A program made the translations under genes and the position numbers. This document shows, piece by piece, positions 27,568 through 35,037 of a stretch of DNA of 64,000 nt; positions within the stretch are counted from its first letter, which is position 1; each line of letters opens with the position of its first letter. Source of the stretch: Acidobacteriota bacterium (GTDB lineage: Bacteria; Acidobacteriota; Terriglobia; UBA7540). The notes beneath the pieces are model-generated. The model was not told the origin of the DNA. It ran no database searches and saw nothing but the letters and a program-made list of their open reading frames with translations. Location: assembly GCA_003225365.1 (NCBI GenBank), contig QHZN01000085.1:1-64000 (forward strand). Reading direction: 5' to 3'.

Positions 27568-28326
27568 ATGACTTCAAGAAAAATCCTTGCTCTGCCGGCT
27601 TTCTTTGTCTCCGCGTGCCTGGCTCTTTTCGGCTGGCAGAAAGCGGCCTCGAGGAGGCCGTCGCTTCCGTCAGCAGAGCCTGCTGCCGTAGGCGAGATAT
27701 CCGGCCGAATCGTCTTCGAGGGCGCGCGTCCCTCGCTTGAAAGAACCGACATGTCAAGAGATCCGGTCTGCGCCGCGCAGCACAAAGACCCGGTTTATAT
27801 GGAAGATGGGAAGGTAAACACCGGCGGCGCTCTTCCCAATGTTTTTGTCTATGTCAAATTAGGAGCTGAACACCTGAAGTTTTCAGTCCCTTCCAATCCC
27901 GTCAAGCTCGACCAAACTGGCTGCGTCTATAAACCCCACGTCCTCGGACTCATGGTCGGCCAGACGCTCGAAATCTCCTCCAGTGATCCGACGACGCACA
28001 ACGTCCATCCTCTGCCGAAACTCAACCCTGAATGGAACCAGTCGCAGCCGCCGGGAGCCGCTCCGCTGAGGAGGCGGTTCAACCATCTCGAGATTATGAT
28101 TTCGGTCGAGTGCAACCGGCACCCGTGGATGTGGGCCTACCTCGGTGTCACCAGCAATCCTCTCTTCGCAGTCACAGGCGGGGACGGCAAGTTTGAGATT
28201 CCGAAAGTTCCGCCCGGCGAATACACCTTGGCCGCGTGGACAGCCACTTTCGGGACTCAGGAGCGGAAGATGACCGTCCAGGCGAACCAAACCGCCACCG
28301 CGGATTTCGTTTTCAGAGCCCCTTGA
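27568..28326 (+). CDS. Periplasmic cupredoxin with C-terminal carboxypeptidase-regulatory-like domain
   Basis: 252 residues; the ATG at 27568 follows GGAAAGG. A signal anchor/peptide (ILALPAFFVSACLALFGW) precedes a beta-rich protein. A type-1 copper set is readable: His144 in PTTHNVHPL, then Cys182-x2-His185-x2-Met188 in ECNRHPWMW, the compact C-x2-H-x2-M loop also seen in amicyanin. The end (GKFEIPKVPPGEYTLAAW) is a carboxypeptidase-regulatory-like module. Databases often name such proteins methylamine utilisation protein. It follows the cytochrome-porin by 63 bases and precedes the pentaheme cytochrome. A periplasmic electron carrier, like rusticyanin next to Cyc2, is the natural inference. 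Confidence 0.75.
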   Translation: MTSRKILALPAFFVSACLALFGWQKAASRRPSLPSAEPAAVGEISGRIVFEGARPSLERTDMSRDPVCAAQHKDPVYMEDGKVNTGGALPNVFVYVKLGAEHLKFSVPSNPVKLDQTGCVYKPHVLGLMVGQTLEISSSDPTTHNVHPLPKLNPEWNQSQPPGAAPLRRRFNHLEIMISVECNRHPWMWAYLGVTSNPLFAVTGGDGKFEIPKVPPGEYTLAAWTATFGTQERKMTVQANQTATADFVFRAP

Positions 28327-28479: not shown

Positions 28480-29106
28480 ATGTTACGGCAGCAACACAAT
28501 CTGGGATATGGGTTGGCCCTGGCCGCGACCAGCGTCTTGCTTTGGGGGCTTCTCAAAGGCCGAGGTCCCAACTACGACCCCGCTGCCCAAAGCGGTCCCC
28601 AGGAGCCGGGCGCGACTTCCGGCGTGTTCACTCCGGCTCATCCGAGCCTGGCCGATGCCTGGCGCGATTTTTTCAACCGGCGCCCCGCGCCCGAGCAGCC
28701 GATTGCGTACACGCACAAAGTCCACCTTGTAAAAGTCGGGATGCATTGTACCGATTGTCATGTGGGAGCGGATACGGGGCCTGACGCCCGCATTCCAGGC
28801 GTCAAGGTCTGTATGACCTGTCACCAGGTCATCGCCACGGACAAACCCGAAATTAAAAAATTGGCCGCGTACCTCCAACGAGGCGAAGAAATCCCCTGGC
28901 AGCGCGTATATGGTTTCACTGCACTGGCGCACCTCAAGTTCAATCACGCGCCGCACATCCGCGCGAGCGTGGACTGCAAGGTTTGCCACGGAGACATGAC
29001 GCAGGTAACCGTCGCCGCGCGCTCTGTGGACATAACGATGGGCTTTTGCATTGATTGTCACAAGGCGAAAAACGCTTCGATCGATTGCACGGTTTGCCAT
29101 TTTTAG
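28480..29106 (+). CDS. actA: Pentaheme cytochrome c, ActA-like subunit of alternative complex III
   Basis: 208 residues with an N-terminal membrane anchor (GYGLALAATSVLLWGLL). Five CxxCH motifs are present: CTDCH (90), CMTCH (111), CKVCH (166), CIDCH (190) and CTVCH (203), with spare His residues in HKVH and FNHAPHI that can act as sixth ligands. Five hemes and this spacing match ActA of alternative complex III, related to the cytochrome subunits of Qrc and other NrfD-type complexes. It should face the periplasm and connect the complex to electron carriers. Its stop codon TAG is the first three bases of a MITE-like repeat that separates it from the next subunit gene. Confidence 0.85.
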   Translation: MLRQQHNLGYGLALAATSVLLWGLLKGRGPNYDPAAQSGPQEPGATSGVFTPAHPSLADAWRDFFNRRPAPEQPIAYTHKVHLVKVGMHCTDCHVGADTGPDARIPGVKVCMTCHQVIATDKPEIKKLAAYLQRGEEIPWQRVYGFTALAHLKFNHAPHIRASVDCKVCHGDMTQVTVAARSVDITMGFCIDCHKAKNASIDCTVCHF

Positions 29107-29424
29107 CAGGCTGATGAAAAACACGCCGAAATGTCATGCTGAGCCCCATTCGCTTTGCTCACAGTTCGACTTCGCTCACTGTCCCTGAGCAGAGTCGAAG
29201 GGAGGGCAAGCTCTTCGCTTGTCATTCTGAGCGTAGCGAAGAATCCCTTTCATTCCGCGCTCAGGGTAGACTTCGCGAAGCATCTCGCAGTGGTTTGAAA
29301 TCAATATGATAGATTCTTCGCGGAGTTTACCCTGAGCGGAACTGCTGAGATGCTTCGCTCCGCTCAGCATGACAAGAGAAGGGCTCAGAATGACAACGTA
29401 AGACAATTTTTCATCAGCCTGCTA
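29104..29424. mobile_element. MITE-like element with 18-base perfect terminal inverted repeats (family A copy 2)
   Basis: The left end TAGCAGGCTGATGAAAAA (29104-29121) is the exact reverse complement of the right end TTTTTCATCAGCCTGCTA (29407-29424). The 321-base interior is non-coding, built of inverted segments such as GATTCTTCGCGGAGTTTACC and CATTCTGAGCGTAGCGAAG. The first TAG is also the stop codon of the pentaheme cytochrome gene. Related copies lie at 10795-11007 and 35059-35247. No transposase gene is in the window. Confidence 0.8.
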
Positions 29425-29513
29425 GTTTGGAGTTCCGAGTTCGGTGTTCGGAGTTCAGATTTAAGGGTCCGGCGTCCTATCTTCTGATTTCTGATTTGCA
29501 GTTCCGGATTCCC
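29425..29513. repeat. GTTCGGAGTTC-type short tandem repeat before actB
   Basis: Degenerate tandem copies of a G-T-T-C-G-G/A-G word (GTTCCGAGTTCGGTGTTCGG, AGTTCAGATTTAAGGGTCCGG) are followed by CTTCTGATTTCTGATTTGC. Almost the same array and tail recur at 31849-31934, before the next gene of the operon. No protein is encoded. Confidence 0.65.
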
Positions 29514-31844
29514 ATGGATCGTCGCGACTTTATCAAAATTTCGGCGATAGCTGGAACAACGGCGGCGCTCGACGGCTGCGGGCAGCCGGAGCATCAACTC
29601 ATCCGGTTCGTCCCGGAAGAAGACCTCGTCCCCGGCGTCGCCGCCTGGAAACCAGGGGTGTGCGCGCACTGTTCGGCGGGGTGTGGCCTGCTGGTGCGCG
29701 TGATGCCGGGTGAAGCGGAAGTTGTCCGCGGAAACAAGGTCGGGCTGATTCAGATGGGGCTGGCGAAGAAGCTCGAGGGAAATCCCGGACATCCGGTCAA
29801 CCGCGGGAAGCTTTGCCCGCGTGGCCAGGCCGGGGTTCAGTCGCTTTACCATCCCGACCGCATCCGGGGCCCGCTCAAGCGCAGCGGCGCGCGTGGCTCG
29901 GGAAGTTTCGAGGAGATTGGCTGGGACGAGGCGCTAGGCACGTTGGTGTCGCACCTGACGACACTGCGCAAAGGAGACGGGGCGTCTTCGCTGGCCTTTC
30001 TGATCGGGCCGATGCGCAGCCAGCGCCGCGCGCTCATCGAGCGCTTTCTCCGCGCTTTCGGCGCCCCTCCGCCGGTGACTTCTGAATTGTTTGACGACGC
30101 GGTCTTGCGCCGCGCCAACGCCTTGAGCTTCGGCCACACGCAGTTGCCTACGTTCGACCTCGGCCGGGTAAACTACCTGGTTTCCTTCGGGTCGGACTTC
30201 CTCGGCACCTGGAATTCGCCGGCCTCGCAGGCCATCGGTTACGGCGAGATGCGCCAAGGGCACTCGGGGCGGCGCGCCAAGCTGGTTCAAATCGAACCTC
30301 GCATGTCGCTGACCGGCGCCAGCGCCGATGAGTGGATTCCCTGCCGCTTGGGATACGAAGGTGTACTGGCCCTAGGCATCGCGCGCGAGCTGCTGGCGAA
30401 ATTCCCGGAGGCGAAGACGCTTGCGGCCGGGCGGCTCCTCGCCGGCTGGAGCGACGGCCTGCCCGACTACGCGCCCGCCAGCATCGAGAGACTGACCGGC
30501 GTGCCGGCCATGACCGTCGCGCGGCTCGCAAGCGAAATCGCCGAGAACGTACCCGCGCTTTCCCTGATCAGCGGCGCACCGCTCGCCGGGACCAATGGGC
30601 TGTTCAACGCGCTTTCAGTGAACGCCCTGAACGCGCTGGTGGGCGCGCTCACGCCGACGGGGGAGCCCGACGTACTTCAATTCACTCCCAACGCCCCCTT
30701 GGCACCCGACTTTGCGGCCGCCACGGCCGAGTCCCCGGGTTGCTTCTCCGCGGTCGAAGCCCTCGTCCGAGAGATTCTCCTCGACCAGCCGCACGCGCCC
30801 CAAGTCCTGCTTCTCTACGGAACCAATCCTGTCTTTGCTATGCCCCCTCAATCGCAGGTCCGGGCGGCGCTCGAAAAGGTGCCCTTTATCGCCAGCTTCG
30901 ACGGCATTCTGGACGATTCGAGCGCGCTGGCTGACTTGATTCTCCCCGACCACTCGCCGCTTGAGTCCTGGGTTGACCAAATTCCGGAGTCGGGCACGAC
31001 GGTCGAGACCGTGAGTCTGGCCCCGCCGGCGGTTTATCCGCTCCACGATACACGCGCCATGCCCGGCGTCCTTCTCGAAGTCGCTCATCGGCTGGGGGGG
31101 GAGGTCGCTGACGCTCTGCCGTGGAAGACTTTCGACGAAATGCTCAAGGCCGCTTACGCGCCATTGATGAAAGCCGGCGGTTCCATCGCCGCAACTTCCG
31201 AAGACGATTTTTGGGAAAAGATGCAGTCGCAGGGAGGTTGGTGGGGTCAAGCCGACCCTGAAGCCGCGCAGCCTGCTGTCGGACCGCGCCGGCGCGCCAA
31301 ACGCGGCAAGGCCGTTTCCACGCCCGCGCCGCACGCACCCTTAGCCTTCCAGCCGCCGGAATTCGACGGCTCGGAAACCGACTTCCCCTTCCACTTGCTG
31401 CCATTCGCCACGCAGGCTTTCGGCGACGGAACGCTCGCTCACTTGCCCTGGATGCAGGAGCTGCCCGATCCACTGACGACCGCCATGTGGGGTTCGTGGG
31501 TGGAAATCAATCCACGCACGGCGGAAGCGCGCGGGATTCGGCAGGGTGACTTGATCGAACTCACCTCGCCCCAGGGATCCTTGCGAGCGCCCGCGCTCCT
31601 CACACCCGGGATAGCACCGGACGTGATCGCCATGCCCGTCGGGCAGGGGCATGAGAATTACGGCCGCTACGCAAGCCATCGCGGGGCAAATCCGATTTCG
31701 ATATTGTCGCCGAAGAAAGAGGCGGAGACCGGCGCCCTAGCCTGGGCGGCCACGCGGGTCCGTATCGCGCGCGTGGGCGAAGGAAAGCTAGTGCTGTTTG
31801 CCGGAGGGATGAGCCGCTTCCCGGAAGAGAAGGGGCTGAGGTGA
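29514..31844 (+). CDS. Molybdopterin-oxidoreductase-like large subunit of alternative complex III (ActB1)
   Basis: 776 residues from ATG at 29514. A twin-arginine signal (MDRRDFIKISAIAG) ends near DGCG, which could also be lipidated. An Fe4S4 motif is intact: Cys50-x2-Cys53-x3-Cys57 (CAHCSAGC) and Cys101 in GKLCPRGQ. The molybdopterin family fold follows (YLVSFGSDFLGTW; VQIEPRMSLTGASADEWIP; LYGTNPVF; LILPDHSPLESW). No clear Cys, Ser or Sec metal ligand is seen in the expected place, consistent with non-catalytic ActB/QrcB relatives. The C-terminal domain IDLTSPQGS-like part is present (DLIELTSPQGSLRAP). In ActB of Rhodothermus this part is fused to the Fe-S part; here they are separate genes. 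Start and ribosome site are weak. Confidence 0.85.
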   Translation: MDRRDFIKISAIAGTTAALDGCGQPEHQLIRFVPEEDLVPGVAAWKPGVCAHCSAGCGLLVRVMPGEAEVVRGNKVGLIQMGLAKKLEGNPGHPVNRGKLCPRGQAGVQSLYHPDRIRGPLKRSGARGSGSFEEIGWDEALGTLVSHLTTLRKGDGASSLAFLIGPMRSQRRALIERFLRAFGAPPPVTSELFDDAVLRRANALSFGHTQLPTFDLGRVNYLVSFGSDFLGTWNSPASQAIGYGEMRQGHSGRRAKLVQIEPRMSLTGASADEWIPCRLGYEGVLALGIARELLAKFPEAKTLAAGRLLAGWSDGLPDYAPASIERLTGVPAMTVARLASEIAENVPALSLISGAPLAGTNGLFNALSVNALNALVGALTPTGEPDVLQFTPNAPLAPDFAAATAESPGCFSAVEALVREILLDQPHAPQVLLLYGTNPVFAMPPQSQVRAALEKVPFIASFDGILDDSSALADLILPDHSPLESWVDQIPESGTTVETVSLAPPAVYPLHDTRAMPGVLLEVAHRLGGEVADALPWKTFDEMLKAAYAPLMKAGGSIAATSEDDFWEKMQSQGGWWGQADPEAAQPAVGPRRRAKRGKAVSTPAPHAPLAFQPPEFDGSETDFPFHLLPFATQAFGDGTLAHLPWMQELPDPLTTAMWGSWVEINPRTAEARGIRQGDLIELTSPQGSLRAPALLTPGIAPDVIAMPVGQGHENYGRYASHRGANPISILSPKKEAETGALAWAATRVRIARVGEGKLVLFAGGMSRFPEEKGLR

Positions 31845-31848
31845 GGCT

Positions 31849-31934
31849 AGGGGTTCGGAGTTCGGGATTCGGGGGTTCGGAGTTCGGGGTCCGGAGTTGG
31901 GAGTTCTGATTTCTAGTTTCTGATTTGCTTTTTA
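31849..31934. repeat. GTTCGGAGTTC-type short tandem repeat before the Fe-S subunit gene
   Basis: GGGGTTCGGAGTTCGG and further near-copies run to GTTCTGATTTCTAGTTTCTG and end at the ATG of the next gene. The array and its tail match the one at 29425-29513. No ribosome site is visible before the ATG, so the repeat occupies the normal Shine-Dalgarno position. Confidence 0.65.
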
Positions 31935-32638
31935 TGGACCACAAATGGAGCATGGTCGTTGATCTCGACCGCTGCACGGGCTGCGAAGCGTGCGTGGTCG
32001 CCTGCCGCGCGGAGAACAACGTTCCCACGGCCGGCGAAGATGAGGCTGCGCGTGGCCGTGTGATCCATTGGATCCGCGTGGAGCGCTACTGGGAAGGCGA
32101 ATTCCCGAACCCTCGAGTTCGGTTCCGGCCCGTACTTTGCCAGCAATGCGACGCCGCGCCTTGCGAGCCGGTCTGCCCTACCTACGCGAGTTACCACACG
32201 CCGGAAGGCTTGAACGCCCAAATTTACAACCGCTGCATCGGCACACGCTATTGCGGCAACGCCTGTCCCTACACGGTTCGTTACTTCAATTTCTTCAACC
32301 CTGTGTGGGACAAACCGCTTCACCTGCAACTGAATCCTGACGTCTCGATTCGACAGGTCGGAATCATGGAGAAGTGCACGTTCTGTGTGCAGCGCATCAA
32401 GGCGGCGGAAATCCAAGCGAAGGCCGAGAAGCGGGACCTGATAGAGGGTGAATTCACCACGGCGTGCGCGCAGGCCTGTCCGCCGAAAGCCCTGGTGTTC
32501 GGCGACCTCAACGATCCGCAAAGCGAAGTCTCGCGTCTGAACCGTTCGAACCGAGCCACCAAGCTCCTCGAGGAAGTGGGCACGCGCCCGAGTGTGACCT
32601 ATCTGGAGCGCGGAACCTGGCGCGGGGAAAAGACCTGA
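31934..32638 (+). CDS. Four-cluster Fe-S subunit of alternative complex III (ActB2-like)
   Basis: About 234 residues; ATG at 31934 is used, though the true start may be the Met seven codons on. Four cysteine sets bind Fe-S clusters in the NrfC/PsrB pattern: DRCTGCEACVVACRAENN; CQQCDAAPCEPVCP; RCIGTRYCGNACPYTVRY; and KCTFC with ACAQACPPKA. One incomplete set may hold a 3Fe-4S cluster, as in ActB. It should carry electrons between the cytochrome side and the membrane quinone site. It follows the large subunit by about 90 bases and precedes the NrfD subunit. Confidence 0.9.
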   Translation: MDHKWSMVVDLDRCTGCEACVVACRAENNVPTAGEDEAARGRVIHWIRVERYWEGEFPNPRVRFRPVLCQQCDAAPCEPVCPTYASYHTPEGLNAQIYNRCIGTRYCGNACPYTVRYFNFFNPVWDKPLHLQLNPDVSIRQVGIMEKCTFCVQRIKAAEIQAKAEKRDLIEGEFTTACAQACPPKALVFGDLNDPQSEVSRLNRSNRATKLLEEVGTRPSVTYLERGTWRGEKT

Positions 32639-32678
32639 AAGGCGCCGTGCTCATTCCAAAAGGGAGGCCCGCTCGCTC

Positions 32679-34094
32679 ATGGTGATGAACCGCGACGATA
32701 TTGCGCGCCTCAACGAAGACCTTCTGCGGCCACTTTTCCGCACCTCCGGAAGATTCTACTGGGCCGCGCTAATCCTCGCTCTAATTGTCATCGTGGCCTT
32801 GGCTGCCTGGGGCTATCAGTTGTGGGCCGGTTTCGGAGTCGCAGGTCTCAACCGGCCTGTCTACTGGGCATTTTACATCACGAACTTCGTCTTCTGGATC
32901 GGTATCAGCCACGCCGGGACACTGATTTCCGCCATCCTACGCCTGGCCAACGCACGCTGGCGACGCCCGGTTACCCGCTGCGCTGAAGTCATCACGGTCT
33001 TTGCGCTGATGATCGGCGCGTCCTTCCCCGTCATTCATCTCGGCCGGCCCTGGCTTGCCTTTTGGCTGTTTCCTTACCCGAGCGAGCGCAGGATTTGGCC
33101 GAATTTTCGCTCGCCCCTGGTCTGGGATTTCTTCGCCATTACTACATATCTGACCGGCAGCACGACCTTCTTGCTGCTGCCCATCATTCCGGATTGGGCG
33201 TTGGTCCGGGACAAGGCGAAGGGTTGGCGGAGGAAGCTCTACTCGGTTCTGGCGCTCGGTTGGCGGGGCACGCCTCGGCAATGGTCACGCCTCGAAACAG
33301 CTATGCACATCATGGCGGTGGCCATCATCCCCGTCGCCGTCTCCGTTCACACCATCGTCTCGTGGGACTTCGCCATGGCGCCGGTGCCCATGTGGCATTC
33401 GACGGTGTTCGGCCCGTACTTTGTGGCCGGGGCCATCTTCAGCGGCATTGCGGCCCTGATCCTCGCCATGGCCATACTGAGAAAGGTATTGCATCTCGAG
33501 GATTATTTGACGCCGCTCCATTTCGACAACCTCGGCAAACTCTTGCTGATGATGAGCTTATTTTGGCTCTACTTCATCGTCGCGGAGCGTCTCACCGTCT
33601 GGTATGGCAATGAGACTTCCGAAATGGCCGTCTATTGGCCCACTCAGCGCGGCCCGTTCGCTCCCCTCTATTGGACGATGATTGGCTGCAATTTTCTGGT
33701 CCCTTTCATCATTCTGTCCATCAAGCAGCTTCGAACCGTCGCTGGAACGGTGGTCGCTTCTTCAACCATTGTCGTGGGCATGTGGATCGAGCGATTCCTG
33801 ATTATAGTGCCGCCGCTCGAGCGCAAGTATCTTCCTTTCGCCTGGGGGACCTATCACCCGAGGCCGGTCGAGATCATCATTACGGCCGGAACGTTCGCCG
33901 CGATGGCGCTCCTCTATCTCTTATTTGTCAAATTTGTTCCCATTATTTCGATTTGGGAGTTGAAGGCGGGAGTGCGGCAGGAGTCCGTTGTCCCGATTCC
34001 GGCGTCTTTGCTTCGCGCTCCCGACTTGATCGAGTCACCTTCGCCAAGCGGCTTAACACGCGGGCCGGCGGGATTTTCCAGGGAGGTCTCCTAG
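32679..34094 (+). CDS. actC: NrfD-family quinone-interacting membrane subunit of alternative complex III (ActC)
   Basis: 471 residues, with GGGAGG about 12 bases upstream. Around ten hydrophobic helices are apparent (FYWAALILALIVIVALAAWGY; FWIGISHAGTLISAILR; FALMIGASFPVIHLGRPWLAF; IIPVAVSVHTIVSWDFAM; YFVAGAIFSGIAALILAMAI). The ISHAGT and HLGRP motifs and the charged/His residues in the helix bundle are typical of long NrfD proteins such as ActC, where they line a quinone site and a proposed proton path. It overlaps no neighbour; the DUF3341 gene starts on the next base. Confidence 0.92.
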   Translation: MVMNRDDIARLNEDLLRPLFRTSGRFYWAALILALIVIVALAAWGYQLWAGFGVAGLNRPVYWAFYITNFVFWIGISHAGTLISAILRLANARWRRPVTRCAEVITVFALMIGASFPVIHLGRPWLAFWLFPYPSERRIWPNFRSPLVWDFFAITTYLTGSTTFLLLPIIPDWALVRDKAKGWRRKLYSVLALGWRGTPRQWSRLETAMHIMAVAIIPVAVSVHTIVSWDFAMAPVPMWHSTVFGPYFVAGAIFSGIAALILAMAILRKVLHLEDYLTPLHFDNLGKLLLMMSLFWLYFIVAERLTVWYGNETSEMAVYWPTQRGPFAPLYWTMIGCNFLVPFIILSIKQLRTVAGTVVASSTIVVGMWIERFLIIVPPLERKYLPFAWGTYHPRPVEIIITAGTFAAMALLYLLFVKFVPIISIWELKAGVRQESVVPIPASLLRAPDLIESPSPSGLTRGPAGFSREVS

Positions 34095-34613
34095 ATGCCA
34101 AAGAAACCGGTCATCTACGCCCTTTGTCCTGACCCGGAGGCTGCTCAACGGGCAGTGGAGGGATTGCGCCGCGCGGGCATTGAGGCGCGCAATATTGCGG
34201 TGGTATCGTCCGAGCCTTTCGAAGGCTACGAGTTTTCCCGCCGCGACCACCAGACTCCCATGCCGTGGCTGGCCGCGCTGGGGGGCGTGGTAGGGGGAAC
34301 ATCGGGGTATTTCCTCGCCGCAATGACACAGCGCTCCTACCCTCTGCCCACCGGCAACATGCCCATCGTGGCGCTTTGGCCGACGGGAGTCATCGTCTAC
34401 GAAATGACCATGCTCGGCGCCATCCTCGTGACGCTCTTCACCATGTTTATCTCCGCGCGCCTTCCCAATTGGCGTGCCCAGCTTTACGACCCTGCGGTTT
34501 CGGATGGTATGATCCTGGTGGGTGCGACAAACCTTAGCCAAGCGTCCCGCATCGAAGCTAATAGGGTCCTCGGTGAGGCTGCCGGAGGGCAGGTCAAAGA
34601 AGTCGGCCTTTGA
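34095..34613 (+). CDS. actD: DUF3341 membrane subunit of alternative complex III (ActD)
   Basis: 172 residues, starting directly after the actC stop, with GGGAGGT inside the end of actC. An N-terminal soluble ferredoxin-like fold (VIYALCPDPEAAQRAVEGLRRAG) precedes two membrane helices (MPWLAALGGVVGGTSGYFLA; VIVYEMTMLGAILVTLFTMF) and a short C-terminal alpha/beta piece (VSDGMILVGATNL). DUF3341 is characteristic of alternative complex III and separates this locus from Qrc or polysulfide reductase operons, which lack it. Confidence 0.92.
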   Translation: MPKKPVIYALCPDPEAAQRAVEGLRRAGIEARNIAVVSSEPFEGYEFSRRDHQTPMPWLAALGGVVGGTSGYFLAAMTQRSYPLPTGNMPIVALWPTGVIVYEMTMLGAILVTLFTMFISARLPNWRAQLYDPAVSDGMILVGATNLSQASRIEANRVLGEAAGGQVKEVGL

Positions 34614-34650
34614 CGGGGCTGGCTAAGCGATTTATTCCAAGGGAGGACTG

Positions 34651-35037
34651 ATGACAACGTTTACGCGAAAGCTGGCCTTGCCTGGAGCTTTTTCAGTCGC
34701 CCTGCTGGTTTCGTGCGCGCTCGCAGGAGTCTCGACGGGCAAAGAGGGGAAGAGCAAGCCCGCGCCCGAGGTCGCCAAGGGCGAGGCCGTCTTCAAGCAG
34801 AATTGCGAATTATGCCATTATGCGGACCGCATTGATAAGAAACTTGGCCCTGGCCTCAAAGGGCTCTTCAGCCTCAAGGAACTTCCTTCCAGCCATAAGC
34901 CGATCACGGAAGAAAACGTCCGCGCCCAAATCGAGACTGGCAGTCCAAACGCCAAACCCATGCCTATGCCGCCGTTCAAAGACAAGCTCAAGCCGGCGGA
35001 AATGGATGCCCTCATCGCTTACTTGAAGACTCTTTAG
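34651..35037 (+). CDS. actE: Monoheme cytochrome c (ActE-like)
   Basis: 128 residues with GGGAGGAC before the ATG. The signal reads LPGAFSVALLVSCALAG, where LVSC could be a lipobox anchoring the protein. One heme motif (CELCH, residues 52-56) and a Met-rich ligand region (PNAKPMPMPPFKDKL), then the closing helix PAEMDALIAYLKTL, make a class I cytochrome c. As the last gene of the operon it matches ActE. No second NrfD subunit (ActF) and no oxidase genes follow. Confidence 0.87.
   Translation: MTTFTRKLALPGAFSVALLVSCALAGVSTGKEGKSKPAPEVAKGEAVFKQNCELCHYADRIDKKLGPGLKGLFSLKELPSSHKPITEENVRAQIETGSPNAKPMPMPPFKDKLKPAEMDALIAYLKTL

Follow-up and report, generated by a model that had tools for sequence, protein, structure and literature searches.

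The gene at 27568–28326 of the window (the whole 64,000-nucleotide stretch of DNA from an uncultured, soil-type Acidobacteriota bacterium analysed here) probably codes for a small cupredoxin, nested within another domain, that is exported and would serve as a type-1 (blue) copper carrier of electrons, linking a Cyc2-type porin to inner-membrane complexes; we put the probability of this reading at roughly 0.75. Cupredoxins, Cyc2 proteins and alternative complex III (ACIII) are each already known, and the nested-domain cupredoxin carrier is a real and probably undescribed variant. The features of the gene and its neighbours are collected in Table 1.

Table 1. Positions in the window of the nested cupredoxin gene, its parts and the flanking genes
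Feature	Position	Strand	Basis
Cyc2-type fused cytochrome-porin, 471 aa	26089..27504	+	one CSSCH haem motif after FARQTG, then PEL, then beta barrel
Nested cupredoxin gene (main finding)	27568..28326	+	252 aa plus stop, open frame
Hydrophobic export segment, residues 1–28	27568..27651	+	sequence, N-terminus comparison; without typical lipobox
First carboxypeptidase-regulatory strands, residues about 43–100, including conserved C68	27694..27867	+	splice test; DSSP strands 42–51, 93–98
Cupredoxin domain, residues 104–200; ligands H144, C182, H185, M188; conserved C119, N145, H147, W187	27877..28167	+	profile versus PDB amicyanin E=0.0019; invariant columns
Rest of carboxypeptidase-regulatory domain, residues 201–252	28168..28323	+	PF13620 37.8 bits, E=2.6e-09
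Pentahaem cytochrome, QrcA/ActA-like	28480..29106	+	five CxxCH; PF14522 8e-12; QrcA model 1.1e-19, below its cut-off
Molybdopterin-oxidoreductase-like subunit, QrcB/ActB1-like	29427..31844	+	Tat-type N-terminus, CxxCxxxC iron-sulfur motif
4Fe-4S ferredoxin subunit, QrcC/ActB2-like	31925..32638	+	
NrfD-type quinone-site membrane subunit, ActC-like	32679..34094	+	PF03916 3.1e-27
ActD subunit of alternative complex III	34095..34613	+	PF11821 6.5e-23
Small monohaem cytochrome c, ActE-like	34651..35037	+	PF00034 1e-13; one CxxCH

A conserved type-1 copper ligand set

The frame begins with ATG, with GGAAAGG about 10 bases upstream, and the encoded N-terminus is strongly hydrophobic, FVSAC being followed by hydrophobic residues. 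A preliminary description had pointed to the motifs PTTHNVHPL and ECNRHPWMW, to an amicyanin-like C-x2-H-x2-M loop and to the His, Cys, His and Met of type-1 copper proteins. Both motifs were located in the 252-aa protein, the former holding H144, N145 and H147 and the latter C182, H185 and M188, so that the type-1 ligand set reads His144 (in HN), Cys182, His185 and Met188. Among the 265 window frames of at least 100 aa, the pattern H-x(25-60)-C-x2-H-x2-M occurs in this one only; shuffles give an expectation of 0.14 frames per window, falling to 0.00 over 200 shuffles once an Asn is required directly after the His.

The four ligands were identical in all 62 rows of a wider alignment reaching down to E of about 1e-12, in which C68 and C119 were not kept in every row, and an alignment of 69 sequences held all four together with N145, H147, W187, C68 and C119. 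Since the ligands are invariant among homologues, the variability that had been named beforehand as a reason to abandon a copper site did not appear. The third conserved His of the HNVH stretch, H147 (28006–28008), is shared with amicyanin, where it is not a copper ligand.

A predicted cupredoxin fold nested in a carboxypeptidase-regulatory domain

The carboxypeptidase-regulatory family PF13620 matches the whole protein above its Pfam cut-off of 32.3 bits, with coverage confined to profile positions 32–80. When the copper domain was spliced out, the score rose to 45.8 bits and the match extended over positions 2–80 of 82. Both score and coverage gain from the splice, and the copper domain is thus an insertion within the carboxypeptidase-regulatory domain rather than a module ahead of it. 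Thus, the C-terminal carboxypeptidase-like module of the preliminary description is present, but its C-terminal placement tells only part of the story, as the module also precedes the copper domain (residues ∼43–60 and 88–100, with the rest at 200–250).

The AlphaFold2 model of the cupredoxin (mean pLDDT 91.9) predicts the Greek-key beta-sandwich of the cupredoxins, and the ligands follow in the expected order of His, Cys, His and Met with an Asn after the first His. Searching the PDB with this model in Foldseek gave cupredoxin domains as the best matches, with TM values by target reaching 0.76; a NirK cupredoxin domain, a purple cupredoxin, amicyanin, CuA domains, pseudoazurin and plastocyanin are among them, whereas the 50 best matches listed do not include rusticyanin. 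At the sequence level profiles were required, a single-sequence search of the PDB having returned only a weak carboxypeptidase-type match. The best PDB match to a profile of residues 104–200 was amicyanin, with HN-x-H aligned to HNVH and C182-N-R-H185-P-W-M188 (C-x2-H-P-x-M) to the amicyanin loop C-x2-H-P-F-M, and this match is modest (E=0.0019–0.004, about 20% identity). The copper domain alone matched no family in Pfam, and this presumably explains why the automatic annotation of one relative names it after the carboxypeptidase-regulatory domain.

The amicyanin of Paracoccus, with ligands His53, Cys92, His95 and Met98 (PMC12723479), is among the nearest known counterparts: it shares the cupredoxin fold, the short C-x2-H-x2-M loop and the HN-V-H stretch, and its His53-Asn54, Cys92, His95 and Met98 align with H144-N145, C182, H185 and M188. 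Unlike amicyanin, the window protein has an extra conserved Cys pair (C68/C119) and sits within a carboxypeptidase-regulatory fold. Direct membership of the amicyanins was rejected, as no methylamine dehydrogenase (mau) genes were found among the neighbours examined, which were respiratory genes instead.

Neighbouring genes in the window

The porin gene ends 63 bases upstream of the cupredoxin gene. Cyc2 proteins are defined by AXPXFAR[Q/K][T/Y] shortly ahead of CXXCH, with PXL shortly behind (PMC8406198). The window porin reads GVASFARQT-GLP-CSSCH-TTI-PEL and has a single haem motif; it thus carries the signature, a single CXXCH, the PXL and the required length of at least 365 aa, with one variant position where Ala takes the place of the motif Pro. 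Most of its relatives read AVPSFARQT or a near variant. A model of low confidence (pLDDT 57) has about 16 strands and matches 16-stranded porins of the OmpT/OmpF type, whilst phmmer against the PDB gave no match for the porin and a literature search on the FARQTG motif found nothing. For distant homologues of Cyc2, those who set out this signature regard the function as uncertain (PMC8406198).

From their sequences, the genes at 28480–35037 encode a Qrc/ACIII-like quinone complex whose make-up is intermediate between the two. Models of the Qrc subunits match below their cut-offs. Canonical ACIII has ActA–F, two NrfD-type subunits and a fused ActB, and the downstream complex is not canonical because its ActB is split and its NrfD subunit single. 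ActD and ActE are present in this intermediate, and the CxxCxxxC iron-sulfur motif is kept in the B1 subunit.

Relatives and their genomic contexts

A match to the cupredoxin was found in 55 of 61 genomes related to that of the window, and its profile matched in 77 of 149 genomes sampled across the phylum. The named relatives are Acidobacteriota metagenome-assembled genomes, including subdivision 13 (gp13), Bryobacteraceae, Solibacteraceae and Acidobacteriaceae; one relative on a contig titled Acidimicrobiia and one on a contig titled Aminicenantes are probably matters of binning or labelling.

The commonest context is the order Rieske, cytochrome b, multihaem cytochrome, cupredoxin, CoxB, CoxA, or a position beside heme A synthase, and the haem motif was absent from the adjacent CoxB in every case scored. 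The window's own genome, whose paralogues were gathered by genome searches, has a copy of this bc/cox type on contig C338. Of 126 distinct relatives, 33 have a frame with the Cyc2 signature no more than 1.2 kb away on their own strand, and more distant copies also stand beside other Cyc2-type porins, among them one on contig C212 of the window's genome. The two contexts differ in the lipobox: such a motif is found in 58/69 bc/cox-linked relatives versus 1/20 porin-linked ones (Fisher P=8e-11, with related sequences treated as independent). Within the main family, a maximum-likelihood tree groups the porin-linked copies into one clade of 23 (21 of them porin-linked; support 99/91) that is nested among the lipoprotein copies and has the window copy and its sister as its deepest branch. 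The porin-linked form appears to have arisen from a lipoprotein relative, tethered to the membrane, whose gene sits between those for a bc complex and a cytochrome oxidase in the same phylum.

The inner-membrane module beside the porin–cupredoxin pair varies, being ACIII-like in the window and at L014 and L101, Rieske/cytochrome b at L056, CoxB/CoxA at L022 and L017, and cytochrome bd at L062. In the reverse test, starting from the porin, an adjacent cupredoxin was found at 15 of the 30 best loci; elsewhere the porin is accompanied by a small cytochrome c (L192, L193) or by a bc complex (L194, L195, L199). On proteobacterial plasmids, related porins are flanked by HiPIP and a cytochrome c in Caballeronia, by one cytochrome c in Acidithiobacillus ferrooxidans and by three in Methylocystis. 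In these gene orders, interchangeable small electron carriers thus occupy the place beside the porin, and this is the best comparative argument for the cupredoxin as an electron carrier.

The link to the operon is not obligatory, because in a sister genome of the same genus (L184, 9259–13809) a porin 83% identical to that of the window is followed by the pentahaem cytochrome and ActB1 with no cupredoxin between them, and the closest cupredoxin homologue (62%) stands alone on another contig. A model of a strictly operon-locked partner was rejected on this ground. The presence of a cupredoxin between porin and pentahaem cytochrome has thus been gained or lost within the genus.

Proposed role and alternatives

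We infer copper loading, electron transfer, the partners and the direction of flow from the site and its neighbours. In the proposed scheme, the periplasmic cupredoxin would take single electrons from the haem of the upstream cytochrome-porin and hand them to inner-membrane respiratory complexes. The simplest local acceptor would be the pentahaem or the monohaem cytochrome subunit of the Qrc/ACIII-like complex, and a terminal oxidase encoded elsewhere could serve instead. Fe(II) as the external donor is a guess by analogy with the Cyc2 precedent. The preliminary description had likewise envisaged a mobile or tethered carrier between outer- and inner-membrane parts, comparable to rusticyanin in role and unrelated in detail. 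The ligands and predicted fold, the Cyc2-type porin upstream and the quinone complex downstream all agree with this, as does the position of relatives between bc complexes and oxidases, and the loop bears out the difference in detail.

The ligand loop of rusticyanin is longer than the C-x2-H-x2-M found here, and that of auracyanin also differs from it. Rusticyanin, moreover, has no nested domain, whilst the chain of Chloroflexus, to which auracyanin belongs, is photosynthetic and has no known Cyc2-type porin. The likeness to each is one of role: rusticyanin acts as a periplasmic copper carrier after a Cyc2-type outer-membrane cytochrome in the Acidithiobacillus Cyc2 chain (PMC10654088), and auracyanin is a blue copper partner of an ACIII-type complex (cited in PMC3150298). 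The position of the bc/cox-linked relatives, between bc-complex and cytochrome oxidase genes, corresponds to the carrier slot of the acidobacterial bc1-caa3 superoperon (PMC8407424).

Several other roles have to be weighed against that of a carrier working inwards from the porin. A structural carboxypeptidase-regulatory protein whose His and Cys bind no copper is hardly probable at all: Pfam does recognise only the regulatory domain, and one relative is annotated accordingly, but the ligands are invariant and the fold is predicted to be that of a cupredoxin. Copper chaperones use ligand sets other than the type-1 His-Cys-His-Met. A delivery or assembly protein of the SCO or PCuAC kind, loading the CuA of oxidases, would suit the many relatives that adjoin CoxB/CoxA and heme A synthase genes, and the alphaproteobacterial relative found between SCO and cbb3-type oxidase genes. 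We consider it quite improbable, however, as a full, invariant set of the type-1 kind, in a closed cupredoxin loop, serves electron transfer. The window copy and its clade, moreover, adjoin genes for porins and quinone complexes, and the window operon encodes no CuA oxidase.

Greater weight is due to a tethered accessory subunit of the quinone complex that does not shuttle to the porin. The hydrophobic N-terminus of the window copy and the lipoprotein nature of the bc/cox-linked relatives would fit such a subunit, and the operon encodes its own small, soluble-type cytochrome c, a possible carrier that counts against a shuttle role for the cupredoxin. It is the porin, however, that is the constant partner whilst the inner-membrane partner varies by locus, and the lipobox has been lost in the window's clade, so that we regard such a complex-bound subunit as unlikely, if well worth keeping in mind. 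Flow in the outward direction, with the complex oxidising quinol and the cupredoxin delivering electrons to the porin cytochrome for an external acceptor, is also rather unlikely. ACIII is generally a quinol:acceptor oxidoreductase, and that of Chloroflexus reduces auracyanin as a menaquinol:auracyanin oxidoreductase (work cited in PMC3150298). Inward flow is favoured over this because Fe(II) is what the Cyc2 proteins characterised so far oxidise (PMC8406198) and the ACIII genes of Sideroxydans ES-1 are upregulated during Fe(II) oxidation (PMC8788666).

Implications for acidobacterial respiration

The relatives in the Acidobacteriota have the look of a respiratory electron carrier that has so far gone unnoticed. 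In published schemes of respiration in the phylum, cytochrome c stands between complexes III and IV, yet many genomes encode a conserved copper protein at exactly that place. The bc1-caa3 superoperon was itself published with a cytochrome c in this place (PMC8407424), and the main text of that paper contains neither the word cupredoxin nor cyanin. In the main texts of the open-access literature, no account was found of these nested proteins or of where they stand in the superoperon, and a search of open-access work for a carboxypeptidase-regulatory domain combined with a cupredoxin returned nothing.

A wider proposal, to which we give even odds, is that nested cupredoxins are the main periplasmic carrier throughout the Acidobacteriota. 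Tethered lipoprotein forms would work between bc complex and oxidase, and the derived, lipobox-free clade would act with Cyc2-type porins as a modular route by which extracellular electrons reach bc complexes, ACIII-like complexes or oxidases. If the protein is such a carrier, respiration would have to be redrawn for a phylum that is among the most abundant in soil. The cupredoxin of the derived clade would be a natural missing link from Cyc2-type outer-membrane cytochromes to the inner membrane, and the uptake of electrons from Fe(II) or other extracellular sources by uncultured Acidobacteriota would then become directly testable.

Outlying copies and plasmid-borne relatives

At five loci the Cyc2-type porin is flanked on both sides, the far side holding a further cupredoxin that is divergent (L088, 6576–7439; L090, 5809–6753; L095, 3152–3994; L103, 6489–7316; L109, 5710–6522); this cupredoxin–porin–cupredoxin order is possibly a two-carrier relay. 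In the window's own genome, a divergent paralogue (L198, 5296–6081) is found outside the respiratory clusters, near apparent two-component and RND-type genes.

Relatives of both genes also occur on plasmids. The alphaproteobacterial relative of the cupredoxin (32%; L153, 5899–6615) is on a Phyllobacterium plasmid, and on a Sinorhizobium meliloti plasmid (L203) the annotation divides the match into two short genes that lie side by side. A porin relative (34%) is accompanied by a cytochrome c on the Acidithiobacillus ferrooxidans plasmid (L201, 6890–9186), and further relatives are found on Acidiphilium plasmids; it is possible that the Cyc2-type porin module on such plasmids is mobile.
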